Below, one piece after another: positions 2,982 through 20,657 of a stretch of DNA of 64,000 nucleotides. Made by a program: the position numbers and the translations under genes. Position 1 is the stretch's first letter. Each line of letters opens with the position of its first letter. The notes under the pieces are model-generated. The model had not been told where the DNA came from, ran no database searches, and saw only the letters and a list, made by a program, of their open reading frames with translations. The stretch comes from Saccharomonospora cyanea NA-134 (GTDB lineage Bacteria; Actinomycetota; Actinomycetes; Mycobacteriales; Pseudonocardiaceae), in assembly GCF_000244975.1 (NCBI RefSeq), contig NZ_CM001440.1:2960325-3024324 (forward strand). The letters run 5' to 3'.

Positions 2982-3099
2982 CGCGCCCTCCCGTACCCGG
3001 TCGCGCTCACGCTCGCCGCTTCCGCGGTGTGGTGTCAACGCGCCGCGAACGGCACCGGAAGTGTTGCCCGCACCGGCGCCGCACCTGATCGTGCGTGGC

Positions 3100-5483: not shown

Positions 5484-5514
5484 GCGGGGCGCCGCTCACC
5501 CGTCGGCGCCCCGC
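5484..5514. terminator. Bidirectional terminator hairpin between convergent genes
   Basis: GCGGGGCGCCG (5484-5494) pairs perfectly with CGGCGCCCCGC (5504-5514) around a 9-base loop. A second alternative stem GTGAGCG/CGCTCAC (5478-5499) overlaps it. It lies between the stops of the CoA transferase (+) and the acyl-CoA ligase (-). No T-tract follows, which is usual for high-GC actinobacteria. Confidence 0.6.
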
Positions 5515-6965
5515 ACGGCGGCCAGCATCGCCGCCAGTGCGGGGCGCGAAACCTTCCCGTTCGCGGTCATCGGCAACTCGGGAAGCCTGAGCACGTCGTA
5601 GGGTCGCTTGTCGTCCGAGATCCGGCCCCGCATCCAGTCCCGCACCTGGGCGGCGTCGAGGTCGGTGTCGCTGACCACCGCCGCCGCGACACGCTGTCCC
5701 CACACCGGGTCGGGCACACCGAACACCACGCACTCCCGCACGTCGGGATGCCCGCCCAGGACGGCCTCGATGTCGGCAGGCACCATGTTCACGCCACCAC
5801 TGATGATCATGTCGTCGGCACGTCCGGTCACGTGGACATAGCCGTCGGCGTCGACGAAGCCCACGTCACCGACGGTCTGCCAACCGCCGCCGGGAGCCTG
5901 CTCCTCGCGGCGAGCCGTGCCGAGCCGCTCGTCGCCGCCCACGTAGCCGTCGAAGGCGAGCGGTGTCCGCGCGTGCAGCACGCCCTCCTCCCCTGCTCCG
6001 AGGCGTCGCCCGTCGCGGAAAGCGGCCACCTCGACACCGTCGAACGGTCGCCCCGACGAGCCGGGGTGGTCGGCGAACTCGCGGGCGTGCAGCGCGGTCG
6101 TCGGCCCCAGTTCGGTGCTGCCGTAACACTCGACGAAGCCGGGCCCGAACAGGCGCACCGCTTCCCGCTTCAGCGCGTCGGGGAACGGCTCACCCGACAC
6201 CACGACGTGGGTGGGTGTGGGAAGCCGATCCCGCCGGTCCCGCCCCGCGCGGACCAGCCGTCGAAGCTGGGTGGGGGTGAGGAATCCGCTGTTCATGCCG
6301 TGCTCCGACGCGAAGTCCAGCCACGCCTCGGCATCGAACCCGCGTAGCAGTCCGACGGTGCCGCCTCGGGACAGGGACATCAGCGCGCACGTCCAGGGGC
6401 CCGAATGGGTCAGCGGTCCGGACACGAGGAAGCGGGTTTTCGCCCCGAGACCGAAGCCGTTGGCGATCCGCTCGGCGAGGCGCCGGTCGCCCCTCGTCCG
6501 CAGCGCTGCCTTGGGGCGGCCGCTCGTGCCCGACGTGAACAGCAGGGACGCGCCCGCGCCGAGCCGGTCGGTGTCACCGGTCGGCTCGGCGCGGGCCGCC
6601 ACGAGCCCGGCCCCCTCCGGCAGCGGTTCGGTCACGTCGAGCACCGGCACCCCGTCCGCCACGTCCTGGACCCGCTGTCGCTCGGCACCGTCCACGACGA
6701 TCACGGCCGGTGCGGCGACCGCGATCCGGCCCGTCAGTTCCTCCGCCGTGCACCGCCGCCCGAACGCCACCACGGGGGCGCCGAGTCCGCGAGCGGCCAG
6801 CGCGACGGCGAGCACCTCGGCGCGGTTGGCCATGATCCAGCCCACCCGTCCCGAAGGCCCCGCCCCGTGCGCGGCGAGTGCCGTGGCGAACCGGTCCACC
6901 ATCTCGTCGAGTTCGCCTCGGGTGAGGGTGCGATCGACCTCCACCACGGCCGGCGTCTCCGTCAT
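5496..6965 (-). CDS. AMP-dependent acyl-CoA (or acyl-ACP) ligase
   Basis: A 489-residue ANL-superfamily adenylating enzyme. It has the P-loop LFTSGTSGRPKAA (about 165-177), the A5 motif YGSTELGP, the A7-type TVGDVGFVDADGYVHVTGR, and the C-terminal catalytic lysine in NGKVSR. It is slightly shorter than typical fatty-acyl-CoA ligases because of a trimmed N-terminus. It is the last gene of the 14-gene KS/ACP unit, 58 bases after the thiolase. A tandem 10-base repeat (CCGTCCCGGA) covers 7001-7020, next to the thiolase stop. It probably activates a carboxylic-acid starter or the finished chain as an adenylate, then thioesterifies it to CoA or to the cluster ACP; which acceptor is used cannot be told. 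Confidence 0.88.
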   Translation of the reverse strand: MTETPAVVEVDRTLTRGELDEMVDRFATALAAHGAGPSGRVGWIMANRAEVLAVALAARGLGAPVVAFGRRCTAEELTGRIAVAAPAVIVVDGAERQRVQDVADGVPVLDVTEPLPEGAGLVAARAEPTGDTDRLGAGASLLFTSGTSGRPKAALRTRGDRRLAERIANGFGLGAKTRFLVSGPLTHSGPWTCALMSLSRGGTVGLLRGFDAEAWLDFASEHGMNSGFLTPTQLRRLVRAGRDRRDRLPTPTHVVVSGEPFPDALKREAVRLFGPGFVECYGSTELGPTTALHAREFADHPGSSGRPFDGVEVAAFRDGRRLGAGEEGVLHARTPLAFDGYVGGDERLGTARREEQAPGGGWQTVGDVGFVDADGYVHVTGRADDMIISGGVNMVPADIEAVLGGHPDVRECVVFGVPDPVWGQRVAAAVVSDTDLDAAQVRDWMRGRISDDKRPYDVLRLPELPMTANGKVSRPALAAMLAAVRGADG

Positions 6966-7023: not shown

Positions 7024-8163
7024 TCACAGCCGCTGCAGCACCGTGGCCGTACCGAGTGATCCTCCGCAGCACATCGTCACGAGCGCGTGCTCGCGGTCGC
7101 GCCTGCGCAGTTCGCCGAGCGCGGTGGCGACCAGCCGGGCTCCGGTGGCTCCCATCGGGTGCCCGAGCGCGATCGCTCCCCCGTTGACGTTGACGCGGTC
7201 GAGATCGGCGCCGGTGCGCTCGACCCACGACAACACCACACTCGCGAACGCCTCGTTGACCTCCGCGAGGTCGAGGTCGGCCAGCGCCATCCCGGTCCGG
7301 TCGAGCACCGCCCGGGTCGCGTCGACGGGGCCGTCGAGCAGGTAGTACGGATCGGCCCCGACGAAGGTGTGCCCCACCACGCGGCCGATCGGGCGAAGGC
7401 CGAGTGCTTGTGCCCGCTCGGCCGACATCCACAGCACGGCCGCGGCTCCGTCCGACACCTGCGAGGTGGTCGCGGCGGTGTGCAGGCCCTCCCGCAGGGT
7501 CGTCCGCAACGTCGCCAGGGTCTCCGGCGTCGAGTCCCGGATTCCCTCGTCCTCGGTCACCACGCCGTTCGGGGTCTCCACCGGCACGATCTCCTCGGCG
7601 AACACGCCACGGTCGCGAGCCGCCGCGGCGAGGCGTTGCGACCGCACCCCGAAGGCGTCGAGCTGCTCCCGGGTGTGGCCCTGCCTGCGGGCGATGCGTT
7701 CGGCACCCCCGAACTGCAGGCCCGGCGGGTCGTCCCAGGGGTAGTCGTCGGTCTGGTAGTCACGCTTGCCACCGGGAATGTTCGCTCCCGCGGGCACGCG
7801 GCTCATGCTCTCCACACCGCACGCGATGCCGAGGTCGAGCACCCCCGCGTCGATCTGCGCGCGGATCAGCTCGTTCGCCTGCTGCGCCGACCCGCAGCTG
7901 GCGTCGATCGTGAGGCACGGCACCGTGTGGTCGAGCCCGGTGGACAGCCACGCGCAGCGGGTCACGTTGAACCCCTGCTCGCCGACCTGGGTCACGCAGC
8001 CGCCGACGATCTGCTGCACGGCGGACGGTTCGAGACGGTTGCGGCGCAACAGCTCCAGGAGCACGGTCCGCAACAGCTCGGCGGGGCGCATTCCGGACAG
8101 CACACCGCCGCGCTTGCTGATCGGCGTCCGCACCGCGTCGACGACGACGGCGCGGGAGGTCAT
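7024..8163 (-). CDS. Thiolase (acetyl-CoA acetyltransferase family)
   Basis: A 379-residue thiolase with the nucleophilic cysteine in IDASCGSAQQA (about residue 87), the histidine in GGAIALGHPMGATGAR and the second cysteine in CCGGSLGTA, so all three catalytic residues are present. Length is normal. The ATG at 8163 overlaps the stop of the isomerase gene (ATGA); the longer open frame upstream is antisense noise. It could carry out the degradative thiolytic step on a beta-ketoacyl-CoA or a condensing step. The DASCGSAQQA context is the type found in FadA5-like and acetyl-CoA acetyltransferase thiolases of actinobacteria. Confidence 0.9.
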   Translation of the reverse strand: MTSRAVVVDAVRTPISKRGGVLSGMRPAELLRTVLLELLRRNRLEPSAVQQIVGGCVTQVGEQGFNVTRCAWLSTGLDHTVPCLTIDASCGSAQQANELIRAQIDAGVLDLGIACGVESMSRVPAGANIPGGKRDYQTDDYPWDDPPGLQFGGAERIARRQGHTREQLDAFGVRSQRLAAAARDRGVFAEEIVPVETPNGVVTEDEGIRDSTPETLATLRTTLREGLHTAATTSQVSDGAAAVLWMSAERAQALGLRPIGRVVGHTFVGADPYYLLDGPVDATRAVLDRTGMALADLDLAEVNEAFASVVLSWVERTGADLDRVNVNGGAIALGHPMGATGARLVATALGELRRRDREHALVTMCCGGSLGTATVLQRL

Positions 8164-8858
8164 CCGCAGCCTCCCGCCGTGTCGGTGTCGTACGCACCGA
8201 CCAGGTCCCGCACGGCCGCCGGCGCGGGTGGCACCTCGGGCACAGGCTCGCCGGTCAGCGCGGCCACGAAGTCGTCCACCCGGTCCAGCCCCCAGAACCG
8301 CTCCCGTCCGATCCGGAAGTACGGCACCCCGAACACGTCGTCCTCGTACGCCCGCACCAGCGCCTCGGTGCCCGCCTCGCGCAGCCGGGGATCGTCGGGC
8401 GCGGCGACCAGTTCGTCGCCGGGCAGTCCCGCCGCCTCGGCCACCGCCCGTACCACCTCGGGCGTGCACACGTTCTCCCCGCGCTCCCACCGGGCGGCGG
8501 TGATCCCGGCGTAGAACTGCGCTCCCCTGCCGAGTTCGGTCGCTCGGATCCACGCGAGATGCGGCAGTTCCCACCACGGGTCCACGTCGACGGGCCACGT
8601 CATGGTCAGCCCGTGCTTGCGGACCTGGCGCCGCACGTCGTAGAGGATGTACAGGTGCTTGGCCTTGCTCATCTGCTGGTAGTGGAAGTCGGCGCCACGC
8701 TCGTGCAACGCCGCCGTGGTGCGCTCGTCCGGGTCGTAGTACGGCAGCAGCTCCACCCTCTCGGTGAGATCGGGCACGGCGCCCAGCAGCTTCGTCATGG
8801 CGATCCAACTGAACGGGCTGCGGAAGGAGAAGTGCACCCGTGGCCTGCGTGCGCTCAC
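8160..8858 (-). CDS. DsbA-fold isomerase, 2-hydroxychromene-2-carboxylate isomerase-like
   Basis: A 232-residue thioredoxin-fold (DsbA/kappa-GST) protein. Near the N-terminus it reads FSFRSPFSW, with serines where oxidoreductases have CxxC; this SPFS pattern belongs to HCCA isomerases, which use a thiol cofactor for cis-trans isomerisation. GVPYFRIG near residue 190 is the usual cis-Pro loop (GVPxF). It overlaps both neighbours by 4 bases. In actinobacteria the thiol would be mycothiol rather than glutathione (inference). Within a KS/ACP operon it may isomerise double bonds in a polyene intermediate, or act in degradation of an aromatic unit; the sequence does not decide. Confidence 0.8.
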   Translation of the reverse strand: MSARRPRVHFSFRSPFSWIAMTKLLGAVPDLTERVELLPYYDPDERTTAALHERGADFHYQQMSKAKHLYILYDVRRQVRKHGLTMTWPVDVDPWWELPHLAWIRATELGRGAQFYAGITAARWERGENVCTPEVVRAVAEAAGLPGDELVAAPDDPRLREAGTEALVRAYEDDVFGVPYFRIGRERFWGLDRVDDFVAALTGEPVPEVPPAPAAVRDLVGAYDTDTAGGCG

Positions 8859-9751
8859 CGGCCCTCACCTCGCCGCAGCGTCTCCACCGTCTCCTCGTCC
8901 AGCTCCGCGAGCTGACCGACGGACTCGCCGCGGGTCACCGCGTAACCGTGCAGGATCGTGCCCGCCGCCACCAGCCTGGTGTGGTCTCCCTCGACGACGT
9001 GACAGGTCATGCGGCCGTCGAACGCGCGCCCGGCCACGATGTCGTCCACGGCGAACGTGGTTCGGACGACGTCGTCCATGCGCGCCTCGCCGTACACCGC
9101 GACCCTGGCCCTCGACACGACCGGGATCCAGCCACGCTCGGCGAGCAACCTCGGCACCGACAGGCCGACCGCGGCGAGGTAGCGGTCCACCGCCTCCTCC
9201 ATCGCCGCCACGTACGTCGAGTGCTGCACGACGTCCGAGTAGTGGCAGTGGAAGTAACGCGCCGTCCAGTCCCAGGAGAACTCCCCCGGCCGTCCCGCGA
9301 TCTCCTCGGAGGCGACCGGGGAGGTGAGCAGCGCCCGCAACTCCTCGGGCACCTCGGCACCGTGGCGCTCGGCGGCCGCCTCCGGGACCAGTGCCACCGT
9401 GAGCCTGCCCCGCAACACCCGCGCAGGGCTCTCACCACCGGTCCGCAACCGCACGGTGAACGTGGCGCCGCCGGTGCGGGTGACCTCGGCGGTCACCTCG
9501 TCGTCCACCTCCAGTGTGGCGGGCAGCAGCACGGAGGAGTCGAGCACGCGCAGCCCGACGCCGTACTCGTGGAACAGCCGCTGCGGGCCGAGATCCCGCT
9601 CGCGGAACCAGCCGAGCACGGCCTCCTGCGCCAGCTGCATGAACTGCTTGAACCCGATCCACGTGCGGATGTTGGCGCTCTCGTAACGAGGGCGCAGGTG
9701 CGTGACGACACTGCGCTCCTCCACCTCCCGCGCGAGCGGTTCAGCGGTCAT
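8855..9751 (-). CDS. Double hot-dog acyl thioesterase-like protein
   Basis: A 298-residue protein apparently built from two 4-hydroxybenzoyl-CoA-thioesterase-type hot-dog domains. The N-terminal half has YESANIRTWIGFKQFM and the second half HYSDVVQHSTYVAAMEE (about 175-192), which fits the family pattern of an Asp near a His followed by Y and E on the long helix. It overlaps the hydrolase and isomerase genes by 4 bases on each side. Likely releases an acyl chain from ACP or CoA; FadM/YbgC-like thioesterases (ApeK) have that place in aryl-polyene clusters. Substrate is inferred from context only. Confidence 0.75.
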   Translation of the reverse strand: MTAEPLAREVEERSVVTHLRPRYESANIRTWIGFKQFMQLAQEAVLGWFRERDLGPQRLFHEYGVGLRVLDSSVLLPATLEVDDEVTAEVTRTGGATFTVRLRTGGESPARVLRGRLTVALVPEAAAERHGAEVPEELRALLTSPVASEEIAGRPGEFSWDWTARYFHCHYSDVVQHSTYVAAMEEAVDRYLAAVGLSVPRLLAERGWIPVVSRARVAVYGEARMDDVVRTTFAVDDIVAGRAFDGRMTCHVVEGDHTRLVAAGTILHGYAVTRGESVGQLAELDEETVETLRRGEGR

Positions 9752-10545
9752 CGGTCTTCGCTCCTTTCGGCTCGGTGTGCGGTGGGTGACGCCGCGAACC
9801 GCGTCAGCAGCTCGGCAACCTGTTCCGCATGCCGGATGTGGCAGAAGTGGTCGAACTCCGCATGCCAGGTCAGGGTCGCGTCCGGCAGCGCGCCGGTGAG
9901 CCTGGACAGCTGCGCGCGGGACGCGCCGGGATCGCGCTCGCCCGCGACGACGAGGACCGGGATGCCGAGCGACTCCATGGGAAGGTGCCCGCTCGCCACG
10001 TACTGTTCGAAGACGGCCAGAAAGCCCGTCAACCCGATCCGCTCGAACACCTTGTCGGTCATCGACTCGACGAGCGCCTCGCCGATCCGTTCGAGTCGTC
10101 CGCCGAGCCGCGCCCGCACGGCCTCCCGCATCTGGAACTCGAACGCCTCACGGGAACGGTTCCAGGTCCGCCAGGTCGGACGGGGCTCCGGAGCACGGTA
10201 GAACGGAACGATCATCGCGAGTGCTCCCGCGCCGCAGTACTCCCGTGCCACCGCCTCCAGCGACGCGTTCGCCCCGAACGAGTGGCCGACCAGCAGGTCG
10301 GGTTTGCGGTCGAGCCGGTCGAGACCGGTCGCGATCCACGACGCGGGCGGCGCGGTCCACCGCCAGCCGTAGTCGTTGCCCGCGCGCCAGGGCATGTCGA
10401 GCGCCACGGTGTCCCAGCCGTCACCGAGTGACTCCGACACGGACCGCCACGAGCGCCAGTCGTCCTCCAGCCCGTGCACGAACACGGCCAGGGGGCGATC
10501 CGGCCGCGACGGGCCGAGCCGCTTCGGACGTACCTCGGCGTTCAT
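9748..10545 (-). CDS. Alpha/beta-hydrolase
   Basis: A 265-residue alpha/beta-hydrolase. The nucleophile elbow is VGHSFGAN (serine near residue 92), the acidic residue probably lies in VAGERDPGAS, and the histidine in the C-terminal EFDHFCHIRH. FVHGLEDDW is the N-terminal oxyanion-hole HG motif. The start at 10545 overlaps the upstream KS-like stop by 4 bases (ATGA) and its own stop overlaps the thioesterase start the same way. There is no signal peptide, so it is cytosolic. It may be a second releasing enzyme or an editing hydrolase for the ACP line. Confidence 0.85.
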   Translation of the reverse strand: MNAEVRPKRLGPSRPDRPLAVFVHGLEDDWRSWRSVSESLGDGWDTVALDMPWRAGNDYGWRWTAPPASWIATGLDRLDRKPDLLVGHSFGANASLEAVAREYCGAGALAMIVPFYRAPEPRPTWRTWNRSREAFEFQMREAVRARLGGRLERIGEALVESMTDKVFERIGLTGFLAVFEQYVASGHLPMESLGIPVLVVAGERDPGASRAQLSRLTGALPDATLTWHAEFDHFCHIRHAEQVAELLTRFAASPTAHRAERSEDR

Positions 10546-11423
10546 CCGCGCCCCGCGGTGATCCGGGTGGAGCGGAAACCCTCTTCCGGAGCACCACACA
10601 CCGCGGTGATCGAACGCACCGTGGAGTCGGCGGCGACGACGGCCGCCGCGACGGCGACCTGGAGCACACCCTCGGCGCCGTAACCGCGCCCTCCACTCCC
10701 AGTGTCCACTGTGACTCTCCCGTGTGTTGTCGAATCGGCGAAGAGCCCGCTGTCGTGTGCGGTGGACTCGACCATGACGTCGTGCAGGAACGCTCCGCCG
10801 TCCTCGGCGTGCCCCGCTGCCTCCAGTACGACGCAGGCCGCCACCGGCACCCCCGGCGCACCGGTGGCGCGGGTGAGCAGGGCGTCGGTCACCTCGTCGC
10901 GTGGCTCGACACCCACCACGACGACCCGGCCGGCCCGGCCGGACAGCAGCAGCAACCTGCCCAGCCCGACGGCGTCGAGTCCCGAGGAGTGGCCCGAACA
11001 GACGGTCAGGTTCGGACCGCCGAACCGGAACCAGATCGCCACCGTGGAGGCGATCACGTTGCTGGACGCGTTGGGCGCATCGAGCGGGCTCACCGCACGC
11101 ACGCCGCCGTCGCGCAGGGCGGTACCGAGCCCGGCCACGGTCGCGACGTTGCCGAGGTTGGAGCTGACGATCACCGCGGTGCGCGGATCCATCTCCTCCG
11201 CCGAGCGGCGCGGTGCCCGCTCCGGGAGGCCGAACGCCCGGTGCACCGCGCACAACGCCATCCTCGTCGCCGGTTCCTTGGCCAGCAGTCCCTTGCGCCC
11301 GAGCAGTTCGGCGGCGCGTTCCGGAGGCGGGACGGGGTCCGGCTCCCAGTGTTCCGTGCGCGTACCGGGGACCGGCTCGGGAAGGCACACCGCCCGCCGG
11401 GTGATCGCGACCAGCCGGTTCAC
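10542..11423 (-). CDS. Truncated ketosynthase-like (chain-length-factor-like) protein
   Basis: A 293-residue protein related to the N-terminal thiolase-fold half of beta-ketoacyl synthases but without a usable active site. In NLTVCSGHSSGLDAV the position of the catalytic cysteine is H145, and the two C-terminal catalytic histidines are absent. GPNLTVCSG and ASNVIASTVAIWF keep the dimer-interface look of the fold. It overlaps the upstream, fully catalytic KS gene by 4 bases, an arrangement typical of KS/CLF heterodimers; short KS-like partners such as ApeC occur in aryl-polyene clusters. Non-catalytic partner of the adjacent KS is the best hypothesis. Confidence 0.75.
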   Translation of the reverse strand: MNRLVAITRRAVCLPEPVPGTRTEHWEPDPVPPPERAAELLGRKGLLAKEPATRMALCAVHRAFGLPERAPRRSAEEMDPRTAVIVSSNLGNVATVAGLGTALRDGGVRAVSPLDAPNASSNVIASTVAIWFRFGGPNLTVCSGHSSGLDAVGLGRLLLLSGRAGRVVVVGVEPRDEVTDALLTRATGAPGVPVAACVVLEAAGHAEDGGAFLHDVMVESTAHDSGLFADSTTHGRVTVDTGSGGRGYGAEGVLQVAVAAAVVAADSTVRSITAVCGAPEEGFRSTRITAGRG

Positions 11424-12544
11424 GCTGCCACCTCCGGAGCGGCCAGCAGGGTGACGGCGTTGACCCCACCGAAGCCGAAGGCGTTGACCTGCGCCACCCT
11501 CACCGGCAGCGGCACCTCGGCGGGGTGGGCGAACCGGAACCCGTCCGCCTCCCCGATCGCCTCACGCAACCCGACGACACCCGGTACCCGGCCCGCTCGC
11601 ATCGCCCGCATGGCGACGTCGACGTTGACCAGCGCCGCCGCGCCCGAGGTGTGCCCGACCGCGCCCTTCACCCCGGTGAGCACGGGGCGGCGCGGCCCGG
11701 AGAAGACGCGCCGCAACGCGCGGAGCTCGGCGGGATCGTTCTGTTCGGTTCCCGTGCCGTGGGTGACGACGAGATCGACCTCCTCGGCACCCACCCCCGC
11801 TCGCGTGAACGCGTCCCGCATCGACCGCACCATGCCCGCCACGTCCGGGGCGGTCTCGTGGTGCGCGTCGCAGCACAACCCGGTGGCGAGCAGTCCCGTT
11901 TCTCCCGGCCCGGCGGTCCCGGCCGCGACGACCACGGCGGCGGCGCCCTCGCCGAGCAGCACACCCGTGCGGTTTTCGTCGAAGGGCCGCACCTGTGTCG
12001 TCGGAGCCGGCGTGACCCGCCCGATCATCGCGAGCATCGACGCCGTCATCACGTCGGTGCCCGCCGCGACCACCCGCTCGGCGGCACCGGAGTCGACCAG
12101 GTCCTGGGCCAGCGCCAGCGCGTGACCGGACGCACTGCAGGCGTTCGACAACGTGATCACCGGGCCCAGTCCCTCGCCCAGCTCGGCGAGGCAGGGGCCG
12201 AAGTGCAGCCGATGCAGTTCGAGTTCGTCCCTGCCCTCGGCCCACCGCTCGACGGCACGCAGTTCGCGAAGGCCGGTGCCGACCACGACGGGCACGCGCT
12301 CGGTTCCGGCGTCCACACCGGCGTCCGCCAGCGCACGCGCCACGACGGAGGTCAGCAGCCGGCTCGCACCGTATCGGGGCTCGGGACCGTCGTCGGCCGG
12401 GTGATAGGCTCGCGTCACGTTGACCGAAGCAGCGTCGACGTGCCGTAGTGGCCCCACTCCGCTACGACCCTCGAGGAGCGCTCCGAACGTGGCGGCGCCG
12501 TCGCCGAAGCAGGTGCGCACGGCGCTAGCGACGATGCGCGCCAC
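11420..12544 (-). CDS. Beta-ketoacyl-ACP synthase (active type), first KS pair
   Basis: A 374-residue KAS I/II-type ketosynthase with a complete Cys-His-His site: C136 in SNACSASG, H262 in THGTGTEQND and H298 in GAVGHTSGAA. NAFGFGGVNA near the C-terminus is the standard glycine-rich loop. It is about 30-40 residues shorter than FabF, mostly in the N-terminal half. Its first 20 bases overlap the end of the upstream KS-like gene, and its last 4 overlap the downstream KS-like gene. Catalyses decarboxylative condensation of malonyl-ACP with an acyl chain; likely heterodimerises with the 293-residue KS-like protein. Confidence 0.88.
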   Translation of the reverse strand: MARIVASAVRTCFGDGAATFGALLEGRSGVGPLRHVDAASVNVTRAYHPADDGPEPRYGASRLLTSVVARALADAGVDAGTERVPVVVGTGLRELRAVERWAEGRDELELHRLHFGPCLAELGEGLGPVITLSNACSASGHALALAQDLVDSGAAERVVAAGTDVMTASMLAMIGRVTPAPTTQVRPFDENRTGVLLGEGAAAVVVAAGTAGPGETGLLATGLCCDAHHETAPDVAGMVRSMRDAFTRAGVGAEEVDLVVTHGTGTEQNDPAELRALRRVFSGPRRPVLTGVKGAVGHTSGAAALVNVDVAMRAMRAGRVPGVVGLREAIGEADGFRFAHPAEVPLPVRVAQVNAFGFGGVNAVTLLAAPEVAA

Positions 12545-13640
12545 GCGACCATCCCCTCACCACGGTGGCCCCGACGGCCCCGTCGGGCGAGTGCGAGACC
12601 AGTATCGAGAGTTCCCCGTCACGCTCGGGGCTGTCCCGGTGCCGTCCGAGGACCGCCGTCAGGTCCAGCGCGGCGGTCGCCGAACCGCAGTCACCGGCGT
12701 GTGCCTGCGTCGTGAGGCACTCCGGCTTCGGCGAACCCGCGGCGGCCAGCTCGCGGCACACCTCACGCCACATCGCCCTGTCCTCCCGTTCGTCCGCGGT
12801 GGGACGGACCCATGCGGCGGTGACGCCCTTGCCGAGACCGGCGCCCGCACGCTCGGCCGAGGCCAGCGCCCGGCGCACACAGCCACCCAGCGCGGCGGGC
12901 CGGTCGGCGAACGTGGCCGAGAAACCGAGCGCCACCCCGAGGATCTCGGCATCCGGGTCGGTCCCGCCCCCCGTGGAGAGCGCGAACATCGCACCGCCCT
13001 CCCCCGGATACGTGGCCGGTGGCAGTCCCGCGGTGCGGGCCAGCCACGCCGCGTGCGGACTGAGTTCGTCGATGACACCGGCCAGCAACATGTCGACCTG
13101 CCCGGTGCGGAGCAGGTTCGCGCTGTAGCGCAGCACGCTCATCAGTGCCATGGCGCCACCTGCGATGGTGGCGTTGACACCCCGCAGCCCGAACCAGATC
13201 GCCGCCTGTCCCGCCGCGCAGTTCATCACGGTCGTCGGGAACAGGCCCGCGTTCACCATGTACGGCCGTTCCTGGACGAACGTGTCCACGGCGTAGTCGA
13301 CGGAGGACCGCACACTGCCCGCCGTGGTGCCGAGCACGATGCCGATCCTCGTCGAATCGAGCGTGCCGAGATCGATGCCCGCGTCCTCGAGCGCCTGCCT
13401 GCACGCGACGACGGTCAGCCCGGTCCTGCGGTCGAAGAAGCTCGTTCCCTTGCGACCGAGCTCGGTCCGGATGTCGAAGTCGCTCACCGTGAGACCGGGT
13501 CCGCCGGGCAACGACTCCGGGTCCGTTTCCTCCGTGTTCCCGGGAACAGCCGCGGGACCGCGCAGTGCCGCCGCGAGTTCCGTCGGTGTCCGCCCGGCGG
13601 CACTCAGCGTGCCCACCCCGGTGATGGCCATGGTGTTCAT
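12525..13640 (-). CDS. Chain-length-factor-like ketosynthase homologue, active site lost
   Basis: A 371-residue ketosynthase homologue. VMNCAAGQAAIWFGLRG (about 138-153) shows it belongs to the KAS I/II fold, but the nucleophile region reads NATIAGGAMALM, with Ala163 at the cysteine position. The final catalytic histidine is also missing: QAHAGDCGSA stands where active enzymes have GH near the Lys-x-x-x-GH motif. It overlaps the active KS upstream by 4 bases, the usual arrangement for a KS-alpha/KS-beta pair. Predicted to control chain length or dimer geometry rather than condense. Confidence 0.82.
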   Translation of the reverse strand: MNTMAITGVGTLSAAGRTPTELAAALRGPAAVPGNTEETDPESLPGGPGLTVSDFDIRTELGRKGTSFFDRRTGLTVVACRQALEDAGIDLGTLDSTRIGIVLGTTAGSVRSSVDYAVDTFVQERPYMVNAGLFPTTVMNCAAGQAAIWFGLRGVNATIAGGAMALMSVLRYSANLLRTGQVDMLLAGVIDELSPHAAWLARTAGLPPATYPGEGGAMFALSTGGGTDPDAEILGVALGFSATFADRPAALGGCVRRALASAERAGAGLGKGVTAAWVRPTADEREDRAMWREVCRELAAAGSPKPECLTTQAHAGDCGSATAALDLTAVLGRHRDSPERDGELSILVSHSPDGAVGATVVRGWSRGAHRR

Positions 13641-14842
13641 GAGGCCGCTCCGAGCATCACGATCGCGTTGTTGCCGCCGAAGGCGAAACCGTTGTTCTGG
13701 ACGACGCGGACCTTCGCCTCGCGGTGCTGGTTCGGGATCGGGTCCAGCCAGGGCATTTCGGGGTCGCGGGTGGACCAGTTGATGGTGGGCGGCAGGAACC
13801 CGCGCGCGACCGCCAGCACGGAGGCGATGGCACCGAAGCCGCTCGCCGCTCCCATCGTGTGACCCAGCATCGACTTGATCGAGCTCACCGGAGGCACGTC
13901 ACCGTCGAACACCTCTCGGAGTGCGCGTGCCTCGGTGAGGTCGTTGGCCGGGGTTCCCGTCCCGTGCGCGCACACGTAGTCCACGTCCCCCGGCTCCACA
14001 CCGGCGTTCGCGTGTGCGGCACGCATGCAGTCGGCGATCGAACCCGCGTCCGGTGTCACCATGTGGTTGGCGTCGCAGTTGGACGCGTAACCGAGGAACT
14101 CCGCGTAGGGCACGGCACCGCGCCCGCGCGCGAAATCGGCCGACTCCAGCACCAGCACGCTGCCGCCCTCGGCGGTCACCATTCCGGCGCGGTCCCGGTC
14201 GAACGGGGTACACGCCTCGCCCGCCACCGCGCCGAGCCGCAGGAACCCGGCATGCGCCCAGCGGCAGACCGAGTCGGCACCACCGCTGAACACGACGTCG
14301 GCCTCACCACTGGTGATGAGGTCGTAGGCGTAGCCGAGTGCGTAGTTGCTGGCGGAGCAGGCCGTCGCGATGGTCATCGACTCACCACGCGCGTCCAGCT
14401 CCGCGCTGACCGCCGCGGAGAGCCGGTCGGCGGGCAGGTTCTGAGCGATCTCGTCGGGAACGGCGTCGAAGCCGCCCTCGGCGAGATACTGTCCGTACAG
14501 TTCCGTGGCCTTCGCCTCGCCGCTCGTGGTCCCGATGACCACCGCCACCCGGTCGAGGTCGAGCCGTTCCCACTGCAGGCCCGCGTCGCGCGCGGCGAGG
14601 CGGGCCGCCGCGGCGGCGAACTGGCTCGACCGGCCCCACTCACGGGGATTGATGCGCCGCAGGATCGAGTCCGGATCGAACGCCCGAACCTCTCCGGCGA
14701 GGATCCGGGGAAAGCCGGTCGTGTCGAAACTGGTGATCGGTGCGATGCCGCAGTGCCCCGCGCGCAGCCCGCTCTCGAACGCGGCGGCACCGATGCCGAT
14801 GCTCGACACCGGGCCGATTCCCGTGATCACTGCGCGGGTCAT
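13637..14842 (-). CDS. Beta-ketoacyl-ACP synthase (FabF-type), second KS pair
   Basis: A 401-residue FabF-like ketosynthase with an intact triad: C162 in ATACSASN, H293 in AHGTGTPAND and H328 in SMLGHTMGAAS. NNGFAFGGNNA closes the fold. Starting at ATG 14842 leaves 2 bases after the ACP stop; the alternative ATG 14857 would overlap the ACP by 13 bases. It is the most FabF-like of the four KS homologues and overlaps the dead KS-like gene downstream by 4 bases. Likely the main chain-extending enzyme, working on the ACP encoded immediately upstream. Confidence 0.9.
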   Translation of the reverse strand: MTRAVITGIGPVSSIGIGAAAFESGLRAGHCGIAPITSFDTTGFPRILAGEVRAFDPDSILRRINPREWGRSSQFAAAAARLAARDAGLQWERLDLDRVAVVIGTTSGEAKATELYGQYLAEGGFDAVPDEIAQNLPADRLSAAVSAELDARGESMTIATACSASNYALGYAYDLITSGEADVVFSGGADSVCRWAHAGFLRLGAVAGEACTPFDRDRAGMVTAEGGSVLVLESADFARGRGAVPYAEFLGYASNCDANHMVTPDAGSIADCMRAAHANAGVEPGDVDYVCAHGTGTPANDLTEARALREVFDGDVPPVSSIKSMLGHTMGAASGFGAIASVLAVARGFLPPTINWSTRDPEMPWLDPIPNQHREAKVRVVQNNGFAFGGNNAIVMLGAAS

Positions 14843-14844
14843 GC

Positions 14845-15099
14845 CTACACGCGCCATCCGGCGTAGTTCGCCGCCACCGTGAAGACCGAGTCGAAGTTGC
14901 GCATGGTCGCCAACTCCTGCTGCGGAATCTCTACCTTGTACTTACGTTCGATGCGCGCCAGCATCTCGATCGCGCGCAGCGAGTCGCCGTCGTAGTCCTC
15001 GGCGAAGTCTCCGTGATCGGTCAGCTCCTCCGGCTCGATCTCCAGCACGTCCGCGACCAGCTCGCGCAGTTCGGCCTTCCGCTCGTCCACATCGGTCAC
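14845..15099 (-). CDS. Acyl carrier protein
   Basis: An 84-residue acidic acyl carrier protein. The phosphopantetheine site is S40 in YDGDSLRAIEM, a variant of the usual DSL motif, with the expected four-helix length on either side. Start is GTG 15099, preceded by the ribosome site AAGGAG at 7 bases. It is the only ACP in the window, so all four KS homologues, the ketoreductase and the two dehydratases presumably share it. It lies 45 bases after the FabZ-like gene and 2 bases before the FabF-type KS. Confidence 0.93.
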   Translation of the reverse strand: MTDVDERKAELRELVADVLEIEPEELTDHGDFAEDYDGDSLRAIEMLARIERKYKVEIPQQELATMRNFDSVFTVAANYAGWRV

Positions 15100-15144: not shown

Positions 15145-15624
15145 TCAGTCCGCTCGTCCCCGGTTGGTGGCGGTCGCGGTGACCGCCATCAACTCGCCGA
15201 ACGCCGCAATCGTGCACCCGCCCACGGCCGTATGCCCAGAAACGATGGCGGTGTTCGGACCGGAGTGTTCGAGTCGCACGTGGTGGCGCAGCACGTCACC
15301 CGGGTAGGCCCGCCCGAGGAACCGGCAGTCGCGGATCACCGCCAGCATCGGCACGACCCCCGTCGCGGTGAGGTCCGCGTCGTGGGTGGCCCGCCAGAGC
15401 AGTACGGCCGACTGTCCGAACGACTCCACCACCAGCGAGGACGGAAACGCCCAGGCGGTGTTCGCGGCGGTGCCGTCCAGCGCCTCGTAGCACGGCTCGC
15501 TCAACGTGACCGCCTTCGTCGCGACGAGCTCGCGCCCGGGCACGAGATGGTCGACGGCGTCGACGAGCACCATCGGATGCCCATGCGGGAGTAACCGGTG
15601 GAGATCAGCGTGCCCCGGTGTCAC
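15145..15624 (-). CDS. FabZ-like hot-dog dehydratase subunit (Glu kept, His lost)
   Basis: A 159-residue hot-dog protein of the FabZ family. LLPHGHPMVLVD at residues 11-22 matches the N-terminal PHRxPFLLVD signature, and E67 in VVESFGQSA is the catalytic glutamate. However, the stretch that should be GHFPGxPVxPG reads GTAANTAWAFPSS, so the catalytic histidine is missing (Ala53 by counting back from the glutamate). The start is GTG 15624, in a GTGA overlap with the upstream second dehydratase, which has the complementary pattern. The pair probably works as a heterodimer, as HadA/HadB or ApeI/ApeP do. Confidence 0.8.
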   Translation of the reverse strand: MTPGHADLHRLLPHGHPMVLVDAVDHLVPGRELVATKAVTLSEPCYEALDGTAANTAWAFPSSLVVESFGQSAVLLWRATHDADLTATGVVPMLAVIRDCRFLGRAYPGDVLRHHVRLEHSGPNTAIVSGHTAVGGCTIAAFGELMAVTATATNRGRAD

Positions 15625-16031
15625 GGCGCCTCCTGGTGTCCGAACACGGCGCGGATGGTGGCGAATCTCTCCCCGTGGCCGGTGAAGACGGCCCGGACGG
15701 TGCGGGGGCGTCCCGGCTCACCACGCGGCACGCGAACCGACAGCTCCACGGTGTCGCCGTCGCGGGCCGGGGTCGTGAACCGCGCCGACTCTACTCCGAG
15801 CAACCGGCTGTTCTCCGGCAGGACGGCGAGGACGGCACGTTCCAGCAGATCGAGCAGGAACACCCCCGGGTACACGGGGTTTCCCGGGAAGTGGCCCCCC
15901 AGGTACCTGTCGGCGGGGTCCACACGCACCTGTGCGGTGACCGTGGTGCCGTCGTCGTCGGGTACCGCGTCGAGCCGCCGGAGGACGACCGGGGACGCCG
16001 CTGGGGGCGGCAGCGGAGACGGCGGGTTCAC
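15621..16031 (-). CDS. FabZ/FabA-like hot-dog dehydratase subunit (His kept)
   Basis: A 136-residue hot-dog protein with the canonical active-site loop [12 protein letters not shown] (histidine near residue 43). Fourteen residues later FabZ enzymes have Glu; here it is Asp (FLLDLLERA). Start is GTG 16031, in a GTGA overlap with the ketoreductase stop; the longer open frame upstream is antisense to function. The following gene encodes the FabZ-like protein that has Glu but no His. Together they could provide one complete dehydratase site for 3-hydroxyacyl-ACP, giving trans-2-enoyl chains; no enoyl reductase gene is in the operon, so the double bonds may be retained. Confidence 0.82.
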
Positions 16032-16774
16032 AGCACCATCCCGCCGTCCACGGCGAAGACCTGACCGGTGATGTAGGAGCTTTCGTCGGAGAGCAGGAAC
16101 GCCACCAGCGGGGCCACGTCGTCCGGCCGTCCGAACCGGCGCAGGGGAATGGCGGCCAGTGCCTTGTCCTGGCCCTTCGCGGGCAGCGCCGAGGTCATCT
16201 CGGTGTCGATGTACCCGGGGGCGACGACGTTCGCGCGCACACCCGCCCTCGCCGTCTCCTTGGCCAGCGACTTGGTGAGCCCGATGATGCCCGCCTTCGA
16301 GGCGGCGTAGTTGCTCTGCCCCGCGTTGCCGTGGACGCCGGCGATGGAGGAGATGTTGACCACCGCTCCCGCGCGGCGCTTCAACATGCGGAACACCACC
16401 GCCCGGCAGACGTTCCACGTACCGGTGAGGTTCGTGTCGAGCACGGTGCTCCATTCCTCGGGCGACATCATCACCGTGTTCGCGTCGCGGGTGACGCCCG
16501 CGTTGTTCACCAGTGCCGTGATCGGTCCCAGCGCGTCCTCGGCTTCGGTCACGAACCGGCTCACGGCATCGGCGTCACGGACGTCGCACGGCTGGAAGAA
16601 GGTCCTCGCACCGGCTTCGGCCAGTTCCCGCTCCACGCGCGCCGCGTCCTCACCGCGCTGCCTGAAGCAGCCCGCGATCCGGTAGCCGTCCCGTGCCAGC
16701 CGCAGCGCGACCTCCCTGCCGATGCCCCTCGCCGCGCCGGTCACCAGCGCGCAGGGCTCCCCTGCGCCGGTCAC
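16028..16774 (-). CDS. 3-oxoacyl-ACP reductase (FabG-like SDR)
   Basis: A 248-residue short-chain dehydrogenase/reductase of classical FabG size. The NADP(H)-binding motif is VTGAARGIG near the N-terminus, NNAG lies about residue 86, and the catalytic set is S in NISSIAG plus YAASK. VDGGMVL closes the protein. Start is GTG 16774, overlapping the regulator stop by 4 bases (GTGA). Reduces the beta-keto group on the ACP-bound chain made by the KS pairs. Confidence 0.92.
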
Positions 16775-17952
16775 AGTGCCTGCTCCCTCTGCTCGGGTGC
16801 CGAGGCCAGCAACGCTCGGCGCGCCTCGGGGTCCTCCAGCTGGTTCGCCAAGGAGATCCACTCCGCCGCGACCTCCCTCGCGAGTTGGGCGACCCGCCCG
16901 GTGAGGTGCTCGGGAACAGAGCGGATCAGCGACTCGCACTCGTCCGAGTTGACCACGTGGGCCCGGAACCACATCAACAACGCTCTCCCGGACTGGGTGA
17001 ACCGCAGGCGCGGGTCGTGCGCGAGCGTGGCGAGCATCGCCGTCGGATTCCGCCTGAACCGGCCCTGCTTGACCGCCACGGCCTGAATGGACGGAGTTCG
17101 GCGCTCTTCGGTGTTCTCCTCCGTGGGCTGCTCCTGCTGTCGGCAGTGCCAGCCCTGCTCCGCCTCCCGCAGCCGGGCGGGAACCGGGTCCTCGTCACGT
17201 TCGAGTCGCATTCGGACGTCTCTGGCGGTCGCCGGGGAGATACCGGCGCGGCGGGCGACCTCCCGCAACGACGCGTTCGGCCGCTCAGCGAACAGCATGC
17301 TCGCGATCCGGCGTCCTTGAGCGCTGTTGACCGGTCGGGCGCGCCCGTCGGAGCCGATACGCACGGGCTCGTCCGCGTCACCGATGAGCTGCTGCCGCAG
17401 TGAGCTGACGGTCTTCGGGGACAGACCGGCGGTCTTGGCGATGCACCGGTCCGACAGGTGTGGCTGGGCCGTGAGGATGCGCGAGGCCGCGGCCCGGCGG
17501 TCGGCGAGGGTGAGCGGCAGCCCGTGGCTGACGTTCATGGTCACCGCCAGGCGGAAGGCGTCCGCCTCGGCTCCCTCGAAGAACCTGACCCGGATCCGGT
17601 CCTCACCACGGATGACCGCGGCGCGCATGCGGTGCATGCCGTCGACGACGCGCATCGACGACCGGTGGACGATGATGGGCGGAAGGCTCCCCCCGAGTTC
17701 CGCGAGCACCTCGGTGTGGTGGTTGTCCTCTCCGGACAGACGCGGCGAATCCGCAGGACGCAACAGGTGGATGGGCACCCACTCGGGCTCGCTCAACAGC
17801 GAGCACAGCGCGTCAGGGGATCCGTCTATGGGCCGTGCCGGTTCAATCCGACCAGCGTCGACCCTTCCGGTAATTGCATCCAAGGCCGTGTCCCCCGGCT
17901 CCAGCTGACGACAATCGGTGACACGCCGAATAGTTGTCGAGAAGGAGCTCAC
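16771..17952 (-). CDS. StrR-like ParB-domain pathway regulator
   Basis: About 393 residues. An N-terminal ParB-like domain (roughly 55-160) contains [18 protein letters not shown] and the typical variant of the ParB box. Two helix-turn-helix segments follow: [21 protein letters not shown] and [20 protein letters not shown], linked by [12 protein letters not shown]. This layout is that of the StrR/NovG/Tei15-type activators of antibiotic clusters rather than chromosome-partition ParB. Start is GTG 17952 or TTG 17958; neither has a clear ribosome site. It is the first gene of the KS/ACP unit, and an inverted repeat with StrR-site geometry lies about 117 bases upstream, so it probably activates its own operon. 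Confidence 0.85.
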
Positions 17953-18497: not shown

Positions 18498-19634
18498 GTG
18501 GAGTTGAAGGAGAGCCCGGCCGAGGAGTCGTTCCGCCGTTCGCTGCGCGACTGGCTCGCCTCGCTGCCCCCGGCCCGTGAAGGCGCATCCCAGCCCCTCG
18601 ACCGAGACCACATCCAGTGGTTCAGCTCCGAGCTGCACGGTGCGGGGTTCGCGGGTGTCAGCTGGCCGAGTCGCTACGGCGGCCGGGGACTGCCCCCGTC
18701 GTTCGAGGGCATCGTGTTCGACGAACTGGTTCGAGCCGGGCGGTCCGGCGACGTCAACGTCGTCGGCCTCGGGATGGCCGGCCCCGCCATCATCGCCTTC
18801 GGGACGCCTGAGCAGCGAAGCGAGTACCTGCCTCGCATCCTGACCGGCGAGACCCTCTTCTGCCAGGGGTTCTCGGAGCCGGAGGCCGGTTCCGACCTCA
18901 GCGCCGTACGCACGAGCGCGGAGCGGGACGGCGAACACCTGGTACTCAACGGGCACAAGGTCTGGTCGACCGAAGCACCGGTGGCCGATCACTGCCTCCT
19001 CCTCGCGCGGACCGATCCGACCGCGCCCCCGCACAAGGGGCTGACCTGTCTGCTGGTGGACCTGAGACTTCCGGGCGTGCGCGTCGAACCGCTCAGGCAG
19101 CTCACCGGCGAGCAACGCTTCGGCGAGATCCACCTCACCGATGTCCGGGTACCCCACCACGCGGTGCTCGGCGATCCCGGCGCGGGCTGGCGCGTGGCGA
19201 TGACGACCCTCGCCCACGAACGCGGCACGTTCGCACTGCGCCTGGCCGCCGAACTGAGTCACCAGTTCGCGCGGCTCGTCGATCTGGTTCGGCACCGCGC
19301 CCCCGACCTGCCCGCCTCGGTCCGTGGGCGCCTCGCCGAACTGTGGACGGAGGTCGCCGGTCTGCGCTGGGCCGCGAACAAGGCCGCCTGCGACCTCGCG
19401 CGCGGCACGGCTCCCGGACCCGAGTTGTCCGTACTGAAGCTTCGTTGGGCCCACACCGACCAGCGGGTCGCGGAACTGGCGCTGGACGTGGTCACAGGCG
19501 AGGACGGCCCCGATTTCGAGCGCTGGCGACATCACGCCCTGCGCAGTCGGGCCAGCACCATCGAAGGCGGCACCTCGGAGATCATCCGCGACGTCCTCGC
19601 CCAGCGGGTGTTGGGCCTTCCCCGAGCACGATAG
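18498..19634 (+). CDS. Acyl-CoA dehydrogenase, larger subunit-like
   Basis: A 378-residue FadE-type flavoprotein. The FAD/substrate motif CQGFSEPEAGSDLSAVRT (about 118-135) and the C-terminal STIEGGTSEIIRDVLAQRVLGLPR signature are both present. Start is GTG 18498; no ribosome site is visible and a TACGGT hexamer 7 bases upstream suggests a leaderless message. The next gene, 12 bases downstream, is a shorter degenerate homologue, the arrangement of alpha2-beta2 dehydrogenases known from steroid and branched-chain acyl-CoA catabolism (FadE28/29, ChsE types). Probably introduces an alpha,beta double bond in an unusual acyl-CoA. Confidence 0.9.
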   Translation: MELKESPAEESFRRSLRDWLASLPPAREGASQPLDRDHIQWFSSELHGAGFAGVSWPSRYGGRGLPPSFEGIVFDELVRAGRSGDVNVVGLGMAGPAIIAFGTPEQRSEYLPRILTGETLFCQGFSEPEAGSDLSAVRTSAERDGEHLVLNGHKVWSTEAPVADHCLLLARTDPTAPPHKGLTCLLVDLRLPGVRVEPLRQLTGEQRFGEIHLTDVRVPHHAVLGDPGAGWRVAMTTLAHERGTFALRLAAELSHQFARLVDLVRHRAPDLPASVRGRLAELWTEVAGLRWAANKAACDLARGTAPGPELSVLKLRWAHTDQRVAELALDVVTGEDGPDFERWRHHALRSRASTIEGGTSEIIRDVLAQRVLGLPRAR

Positions 19635-19646
19635 GAGCCGGTGAGC

Positions 19647-20657
19647 ATGGATTTCACCGTCAGCCCGGAGCAGGAGCTGCTGAGGAAGACCGCCCGGGAC
19701 TACCTCGCGGCGGCGTCGAGGGACGGTTCCGGACGCACTCACGCCCCGTGGGGGGAACTGGCCGATCTCGGCTGGCTGGACACCGGCCTCGGTCCCGTCG
19801 AGCTGGCCGTCCTCGCCGAGGAGAGCGGGTACGCCCTGCTGACGCAGCAGTGGCTCGTCACCATGGCGGCCGCGGCACCCCTGTACGGCGCGGCAGGCCT
19901 GCCGATCACCGGCGCCGTCGCGGTCGCGGGGTTGGCCGAGCGCTCGCCACGCCCCACGATCACCCGGTCGGCGACCGGCCTCCTCCTGCGCGGACGGTGC
20001 GGACACGTGCCGTGGCACGACCGGGAAGGCGAGGTGGTCGTGCTGGCCCAGGGTGCGTCGGGACCCGAATTCGTTCGCGTGGTCGACGGTGGTGACCCGC
20101 CGCTGGTCACCGCCCTACCCGGTTTCGACGACACGCGTCCGGTGGTGGACGTGCGTTTCTCCGGGACCGCGGCCGAGCCGCTGCTCGGTGCCGACGACAC
20201 CACGGCGGCCCTGGCCGTGATCCGGCGCGGACTCCGGACGATGGCCGCCTGCGAGGCCGTGGGTGTCGCCCGCCGCGCGCTGGGCCTCGCCGTGGAACAC
20301 GCCACCATGCGGCGGCAGTTCGGAAAGCCGATCGGCACGTTCCAGGCGGTCTCCCACCCGCTCGCCGAGTCGTTCGCCGAGACGGAGTTCGCCTCCGCGC
20401 TCGCCTACCGCGCCGCGGCCACGTTGAACTCCGGCGACGACCAGCACACCGACGAGCCGTTCCTGACCGCGGAGCTGGCCGCCACGACCGCGGCTCTCAC
20501 CGCGACGGGCGCCGCCATCCAGACGCTGGGCGCGCAGGGGTACCTCCACGACGGTCCCGCCGCCGCCCTGCATCGGCGGGCGCGCAGCGGTTCTCCGCTG
20601 GGCACGACCCGCGCCGCGCTCGCGGACCAGCTCGCGACCGCGCTCCTCGACTCCTAG
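19647..20657 (+). CDS. Acyl-CoA dehydrogenase, smaller subunit-like
   Basis: A 336-residue acyl-CoA dehydrogenase homologue, shorter than the usual 380-400. The middle domain lacks the clear FAD motif of its upstream neighbour; the C-terminal helical domain is recognisable (MRRQFGKPIGTFQAVSHPLAE, about 220-240). ATG 19647 has GGAG 9 bases upstream; the GTG at 19641 would be only 3 bases from it. Together with the preceding gene it probably forms a heteromeric dehydrogenase. Downstream there is no further gene of the cluster on this strand. Confidence 0.86.
   Translation: MDFTVSPEQELLRKTARDYLAAASRDGSGRTHAPWGELADLGWLDTGLGPVELAVLAEESGYALLTQQWLVTMAAAAPLYGAAGLPITGAVAVAGLAERSPRPTITRSATGLLLRGRCGHVPWHDREGEVVVLAQGASGPEFVRVVDGGDPPLVTALPGFDDTRPVVDVRFSGTAAEPLLGADDTTAALAVIRRGLRTMAACEAVGVARRALGLAVEHATMRRQFGKPIGTFQAVSHPLAESFAETEFASALAYRAAATLNSGDDQHTDEPFLTAELAATTAALTATGAAIQTLGAQGYLHDGPAAALHRRARSGSPLGTTRAALADQLATALLDS

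Follow-up and report, generated by a model that had tools for sequence, protein, structure and literature searches.

Two ketosynthase/chain-length-factor pairs and a neighbouring thiazoline-type peptide synthetase in Saccharomonospora cyanea NA-134

The ketosynthase genes of the operon

We analysed a stretch of 64,000 nucleotides from the genome of Saccharomonospora cyanea NA-134 (assembly GCF_000244975.1, contig NZ_CM001440.1, positions 2,960,325 to 3,024,324), which we here call the window and whose coordinates are used throughout. The window contains a run of tightly packed genes on the minus strand that extends from 17,796 to 5,496. It begins with a gene that has only weak helix-turn-helix-like matches, followed by a ketoreductase (KR), two hotdog dehydratase-like genes (DH1 and DH2), an acyl carrier protein (ACP), KS1, CLF1, KS2 and CLF2, where KS denotes an active ketosynthase and CLF an inactive homologue of the chain-length-factor kind. 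Downstream of CLF2 there are an alpha/beta hydrolase, a double-hotdog thioesterase-like protein, a DsbA-fold isomerase-like protein, a thiolase and an acyl ligase. At the level of genes, the operon holds two KS/CLF-like pairs and one ACP, as a preliminary description of this DNA had claimed.

The residues that this description assigned to the four proteins were confirmed. KS1 (13,637–14,842, 401 aa) carries the triad C162/H293/H328 and also K323, and KS2 (11,420–12,544) carries C136/H262/H298. The open reading frame of KS1 opens at 14,857; however, 14,842 is the better start since the orthologues have about 400–404 aa. In CLF1 (12,525–13,640), Ala163 stands at the position of the cysteine and Gly-Asp replaces Gly-His; its gene overlaps KS1 by 4 bp. 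CLF2 (10,542–11,423) is shortened to 293 aa, has His145 at the cysteine position, lacks the second histidine and overlaps KS2 by 4 bp. The matches to TIGR03150 (5.5e-103 for KS1, 2.4e-18 for CLF1 and 1.4e-11 for CLF2) show that the family likeness goes beyond chance.

In an alignment of relatives of the window type and the cinnamoyl type, Cys-His-Lys-His is kept in all rows of KS1 (32/32) and KS2 (32/32), and the cysteine is absent from that column in all 31 rows of CLF1 and all 32 rows of CLF2. His145 is peculiar to the CLF2 of this genome; the relatives mostly have Ala, but also Glu, Gly, Ser, Pro and others. As the residue varies among relatives, we rejected a catalytic role of His145.

For CLF2, a structure was predicted from 34 sequences (pLDDT 80.8, pTM 0.85), and the predicted fold is that of a reduced ketosynthase. 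With Foldseek, the ishigamide CLF (6kxd_B) ranks best. A second structural alignment gave nearly the same score for 1j3n_A (Z 26.9, rmsd 3.1, 273 aligned) and 6kxd_B (Z 26.8, rmsd 3.3, 282 aligned), and lower-ranking structures are tied as well. The predicted fold alone thus fails to single out a CLF, because 1j3n_A and 6kxd_B tie.

Relation to cinnamoyl-type polyketide synthases

Among the sequences of the PDB, KS1 and CLF1 both find their best match in the ishigamide KS/CLF Iga11/Iga12, KS1 in chain 6kxd_A (358 bits) and CLF1 in chain 6kxd_B (113 bits). These are the nearest solved homologues, and their structure comprises a single pair. The KS of the aromatic, actinorhodin-type systems (1tqy_A) is matched by KS1 with only 178 bits; we thus rejected an assignment to the aromatic type II polyketide synthases (PKSs).

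Further genes of the operon are those expected for the cinnamoyl-type highly reducing (HR) type II PKSs. Besides the Iga11-like KS with Cys-His-His and the two KS/CLF gene pairs, there is a discrete ACP (14,845–15,099; PF00550, 1e-14), which is the sole ACP found in the operon. The KR (16,028–16,774) is FabG/FlxB-like and scores above the cut-off of TIGR01830 (312.7 bits). DH1 (15,621–16,031) matches PF07977 and is FabZ-like, whereas DH2 (15,145–15,624, alternative start at 15,573) matches FabZ below the cut-off (1.5e-17). The DsbA-fold protein (8,160–8,837; PF01323, 2.6e-14; PDB 3fz5) resembles 2-hydroxychromene-2-carboxylate isomerases and is a candidate polyene E/Z isomerase. No enoyl reductase was named among the operon genes scanned, and the short-chain dehydrogenase/reductase present fits FabG above the cut-off.

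The nearest such systems are those of youssoufene (ysf), kitacinnamycin (kcn), epoxinnamide (epc), skyllamycin (sky) and globisporamic acid (gla). Like the window, they have two or three KS/CLF pairs, a discrete ACP, KR, DHs and an isomerase and lack an enoyl reductase, and a division into stages has been proposed for them. The product of this class contains an ortho-substituted cinnamoyl unit. A passage on cinnamoyl clusters states that they generally carry two or three KS/CLF pairs (PMC9381841). The kitacinnamycin paper mentions some polyene clusters with more than one pair and describes the isomerase as typical of sky and cal, the gene being said there to be absent from other type II PKSs (PMC6510318). 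From gene position, EpcL, YsfG and Sky27 probably belong to the DsbA-fold isomerase family. Several KS/CLF pairs are also present in the mbg cluster (BGC0002441), which has four pairs whose pairings were experimentally tested; according to that study, predicted complexes rank the true pairs highest, although false positives may occur (PMC13311259).

Relatives of CLF2 occur in 28 of the 397 genomes of the order (E <= 1e-12, own genome counted), and a scan of named genomes found CLF2-type relatives at 214 places. The best 80 of these 214, of which some end early at contig ends, are here called the named loci. They share a cassette of KS1, KS2-CLF2, hydrolase, thioesterase, CLF1, ACP, two DHs, KR and the DsbA-fold gene: KS2 and CLF2 are present in 80/80, KS1 in 79, CLF1 in 75, the ACP in 76, KR in 68, each DH in 64 and the isomerase-like gene in 62. 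The hydrolase (9,748–10,545 in the window) is kept in 77/80 and the thioesterase-like protein (8,855–9,751; PF13279) in 76/80. Among the species are Streptomyces atratus, S. viridosporus, S. anulatus and S. calvus, which we take to be producers of cinnamoyl peptides.

Judged by sequence, the KS/CLF pairs of the window are orthologous to those of the cinnamoyl-type HR type II PKSs. Both pairs exist and are conserved, and their kind is already known. Contrary to the initial suggestion, the arrangement is thus not unusual, because orthologous cinnamoyl clusters with two or three pairs have been published. In contrast to the cinnamoyl systems, CLF1 here lies between KS1 and KS2 in a single overlapping run with one ACP. 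The contiguous order KS1-CLF1-KS2-CLF2 of the window is found in 23 relatives, in 18 of which a thiolase and a CoA-transferase also adjoin the four genes; one of the exceptions (L071) stops at a contig edge.

A different function of the second pair is suggested by cispentacin, where AmcF acts with AmcG, a short CLF-like 'cyclization factor'. By analogy, KS1/CLF1 would be a polyene synthase and KS2/CLF2 a cyclising pair. AmcF is the best NCBIfam match of KS2 (1.5e-48), AmcG matches CLF2 (6.1e-07) and AmcE matches DH2 (1.9e-11). Furthermore, AmcG also lacks the motifs and is soluble only with AmcF (PMC10698177). Yet none of these scores comes near its curated cut-off (165.7 of 325 bits for KS2, 29.2 of 80 for CLF2 and 44.2 of 140 for DH2), and AmcF scores KS1 even higher (180.8 bits). 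In addition, CLF2 has 293 aa compared to the 157 positions of the AmcG profile, and the orthologues of KS2/CLF2 are located in cinnamoyl-type clusters. No aminotransferase was found among the operon genes scanned, in contrast to cispentacin. We therefore rejected a cispentacin-type cyclising pair on its scores and consider this function improbable.

Pairing and probable division of labour

The overlaps between neighbouring genes might be read as a sign of pairing. However, 4-bp overlaps occur at six further junctions of the run and CLF1 overlaps KS2 by 20 bp; the overlaps are thus uninformative on pairing and were rejected as evidence.

Gene spacing differs between the two pairs. KS2 and CLF2 lie –60 to 200 bp apart in 108 of the 112 loci that have both genes on one strand, whereas this spacing holds for KS1 and CLF1 in 27 of 104 loci. 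Among the four remaining KS2-CLF2 loci, one (L086, 8453-10615) encodes both as a single protein of 720 aa with a linker, which is a natural fusion. An apparent fusion of KS1 and KS2 in L141 was rejected as a frameshift, as the C-terminal part is out of frame. Elsewhere in the own genome, a 753-aa protein with tandem KS-KS is encoded near a KR-like and a DH-like match (L060:5929-8190, about G000:C1:4143928-4146189).

To compare neighbours and non-neighbours, we used mirror-tree tests with partial correlations of distances. The set behind the 21 and 68 loci given below left out L060, L061, L086 and L141, proteins outside 220–520 aa, weak scores for CLF1, KS1 or KS2, and repeats of named loci (L087, L058, L085 and L088); 99 loci remained, 89 of them with thioesterase and KR. 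With KR as an extra control (21 loci), neighbours and non-neighbours reach 0.47 and –0.05 for KS1 and 0.55 and 0.05 for KS2. Overall, the coevolution signal is weak. It favours neighbours slightly in the 24 window-type loci, where KS1-CLF1 reaches 0.38 compared to 0.21 for KS1-CLF2, and KS2-CLF2 reaches 0.53 compared to 0.42 for KS2-CLF1. Neighbours are not ahead in the 68 cinnamoyl-type loci (0.32/0.46 and 0.37/0.38). We infer putative neighbour dimers of KS1 with CLF1 and of KS2 with CLF2, which the natural fusion and, weakly, the coevolution support but do not prove.

It might be argued that CLF1, CLF2 or both are duplicates in decay, with the active ketosynthases acting as homodimers. CLF2 is short, and BLASTP of KS2 against CLF2 of the window gives nothing significant (E 0.5). 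Against decay, CLF1 and CLF2 persist in distant genomes and lack the active site throughout, KS1 and KS2 are only 33% identical, which speaks against a recent duplication, and KS2 and CLF2 occur as a natural fusion. We thus regard decay as very improbable.

The preliminary description had further guessed that the two pairs could divide initiation from elongation. An early and a late stage are indeed probable from the match to reports on related clusters, so that this guess is the published model and not new. According to a passage on youssoufene, YsfB-C is followed by YsfD-E and then by YsfJ-K (PMC9381841), and for epoxinnamide a passage proposes EpcS/EpcP for starting chain elongation and EpcR/EpcQ for the final C12-polyene (PMC9321520). 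By gene content and probable order, taking the letter order of the Epc proteins as gene order, KS1/CLF1 would correspond to EpcS/EpcP and KS2/CLF2 to EpcR/EpcQ.

The neighbouring peptide synthetase and a possible pathway

Towards the left edge of the window, a set of genes adjoins the cassette, of which thiolase, CoA-transferase, aldolase and P450 distinguish it from the cinnamoyl systems. Within the operon lie the thiolase (7,024–8,163; NF005889, 526.8 bits, above the cut-off, with the longer reading frame scored) and the AMP-dependent acyl ligase (5,496–6,965; PF00501). A CaiB-like family III CoA-transferase (3,061–5,481; PF02515) is divergent on the plus strand. It has 806 aa here, compared to a length of about 400 aa in those relatives that were inspected. 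Further to the left, on the minus strand, there are an FMN-dependent luciferase-like monooxygenase (1,839–2,981; PF00296), a class II aldolase/adducin family protein (1,084–1,839; NF004855, above the cut-off) and a cytochrome P450 (1–1,078), which continues past the window edge and has 416 aa in full. Acyl ligase and P450 are separate genes here and form a single fused frame in the cassettes of nine relatives (L062-L067 and L076-L078), for example L062:13499-16279 and L076:13836-16613 (926 and 925 aa). At the other end, two acyl-CoA dehydrogenases (18,498–20,657, plus strand) are divergent from the operon; such genes also adjoin the cassette in several relatives (L069, L076-L078, L080 and L190). 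The first gene of the run (16,771–17,796), which overlaps KR by 4 bp, has no match in the relatives' loci, and in many relatives a CoA-transferase occupies its position. In one relative, genes for a methylaspartate (glutamate) mutase E chain and a B12-binding protein lie directly behind the two-pair cassette (L079:12971-14670), with adenylation domains on the opposite flank.

Beyond the left edge (L091, L172), the gene run continues from the P450 with a fatty-acyl-AMP-ligase-type gene, then an aryl-AMP ligase, two nonribosomal peptide synthetases (NRPS1 and NRPS2), a saccharopine-dehydrogenase-like protein, a thiazolinyl imide reductase (TIGR01761, 310.7 bits, cut-off 188.8) and a thioesterase. 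NRPS1 has 2,198 aa with two Condensation-type, two adenylation (A) and three peptidyl carrier protein (PCP) domains; the motif DxxxxDxxS marks its Condensation-type domains as the heterocyclization type (Cy). NRPS2 contains TubC_N, Condensation-type, A and PCP domains. Its last approximately 290 aa (L172:17405-19900) have no Pfam match and, judged by eye from the motif, look like a thioesterase domain in which Asp replaces the catalytic Ser. The putative specificity positions of the A domains spell DLYN... or DLFN..., which we take to be cysteine codes. An aryl-AMP ligase, Cy-A-PCP modules and a thiazolinyl imide reductase are also typical of the pyochelin/yersiniabactin-type thiazoline NRPSs. 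Unlike in these, the same gene run here joins a type II PKS, and in the own genome none of three matches to the salicylate synthase model TIGR03494 is over the cut-off. The cinnamoyl systems, in turn, have a depsipeptide NRPS or none. In searches of the open-access PMC literature, we recognised no report that links a type II PKS with a thiazoline NRPS, and the combination looks uncharacterised. What is unusual is thus the company of the two pairs, namely the CoA-type trimming enzymes and the thiazoline NRPS. A family of the arylpolyene type is reported for Nocardia, where 82 of 101 genomes carry it (PMC7413640).

We compared the occurrence of the ligase and the cassette across the 397 genomes. 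The aryl-AMP ligase (at least 55% identity) is present in 16 genomes, 14 of which are among the 28 cassette genomes, and in 13 of these 14 both lie on one contig within 21 kb (Fisher p about 2e-16, kinship ignored). The ligase pocket AHNAA[FL]GCPG, searched as DNA, occurs in 13 of the 397 genomes, all of which have the cassette (13/13); in G238, one of the genomes with this pattern, ligase and cassette are on different contigs, and likewise in G242. A Cy-type NRPS related to that of the window stands beside the cassette in G245 and G273 (L201 and L202; one Cy domain 56–58% identical), and G245 also carries a thiazolinyl imide reductase. A Cy-A NRPS adjoins the ligase in G050, G235, G252 and G335; that of G235 is annotated with Condensation-type, A, PCP and thioesterase domains.

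Several observations weigh against a link between PKS and NRPS. The co-occurring genomes are not independent, because most belong to one genus. Five genomes have the ligase and no NRPS match in the flanks covered (G301, G265, G401, G083 and G091), and two have the ligase without the cassette (G061 and G261). Furthermore, a locus with a DhbC-like isochorismate synthase and a ligase of the 2,3-dihydroxybenzoate (DHB) type lies about 27 kb from the NRPS genes (L173:4749-7588, about G000:C1:2913448-2916287) and could be the source of the aryl acid.

This locus leads to an alternative in which the PKS product is not the aryl starter but an acyl or polyene tail, attached via the acyl-AMP ligase, and the NRPS ligase uses DHB or salicylate, so that the product would be a lipidated siderophore. 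Apart from the isochorismate synthase and the DHB-type ligase, this is consistent with the fatty-acyl-AMP-ligase-type gene between P450 and aryl-AMP ligase and with acyl-AMP ligases near the cassettes of several relatives. However, AHNFPLSSPG is the motif of a separate ligase that belongs to the DHB locus, whereas the cassette ligase has AHNAAFGCPG and misses the cut-off of the 2,3-DHB adenylate synthase TIGR02275 (557.9 of 723.55 bits). Besides the lack of a salicylate synthase over the cut-off, a PchB-type isochorismate pyruvate lyase (TIGR01803) has no match in the own genome; one or the other provides the starter in salicylate-primed thiazoline NRPSs. We thus consider a lipidated siderophore unlikely, though a serious alternative.

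Taken as a whole, the locus is best and probably explained by a two-stage cinnamoyl-type HR type II PKS whose product may become an aryl acid and serve as the starter of a pyochelin-like NRPS. KS1/CLF1 would start from malonyl-ACP and, together with KR and both hotdog dehydratases, produce a short polyene. The DsbA-fold isomerase would set a Z double bond, and KS2 with the shortened CLF2 would add the last unit or units before the chain closes to an aromatic ring. Both the order in which the pairs are used and the ring formation are putative, and that no gene is assigned to ring closure counts against this scheme. At one further remove, ligase, P450, thiolase, CoA-transferase and acyl-CoA dehydrogenases may convert the product by trimming and oxidation into an aryl carboxylic acid. 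The dedicated aryl-AMP ligase would then load this acid on the first carrier domain of the three-module Cys/heterocyclization NRPS. The resulting aryl-thiazoline compound would resemble pyochelin and might be a metallophore. For the specific claim that an aryl acid of polyketide origin, after trimming by CoA-dependent enzymes, primes the thiazoline NRPS via an aryl-AMP ligase subfamily with a changed pocket, we weighed the co-occurrence against the ligase genomes without NRPS and the nearby DHB locus. The claim is therefore tentative, with the doubts slightly outweighing the support.

The compact KS1-CLF1-KS2-CLF2 run with one ACP offers a clean test system for two pairs that share one chain, and experiments are practical because NA-134 is apparently a type strain. 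If the link to the NRPS is true, the logic of cinnamoyl PKSs would be tied to thiazoline metallophores and the ligase with AHNAA[FL]GCPG would be a marker for such clusters. The starter of micacocidin is made by an iterative type I PKS. The pathway proposed here would be a third route to the starters of aryl-thiazoline metallophores, beside chorismate-derived salicylate and iterative type I PKSs.

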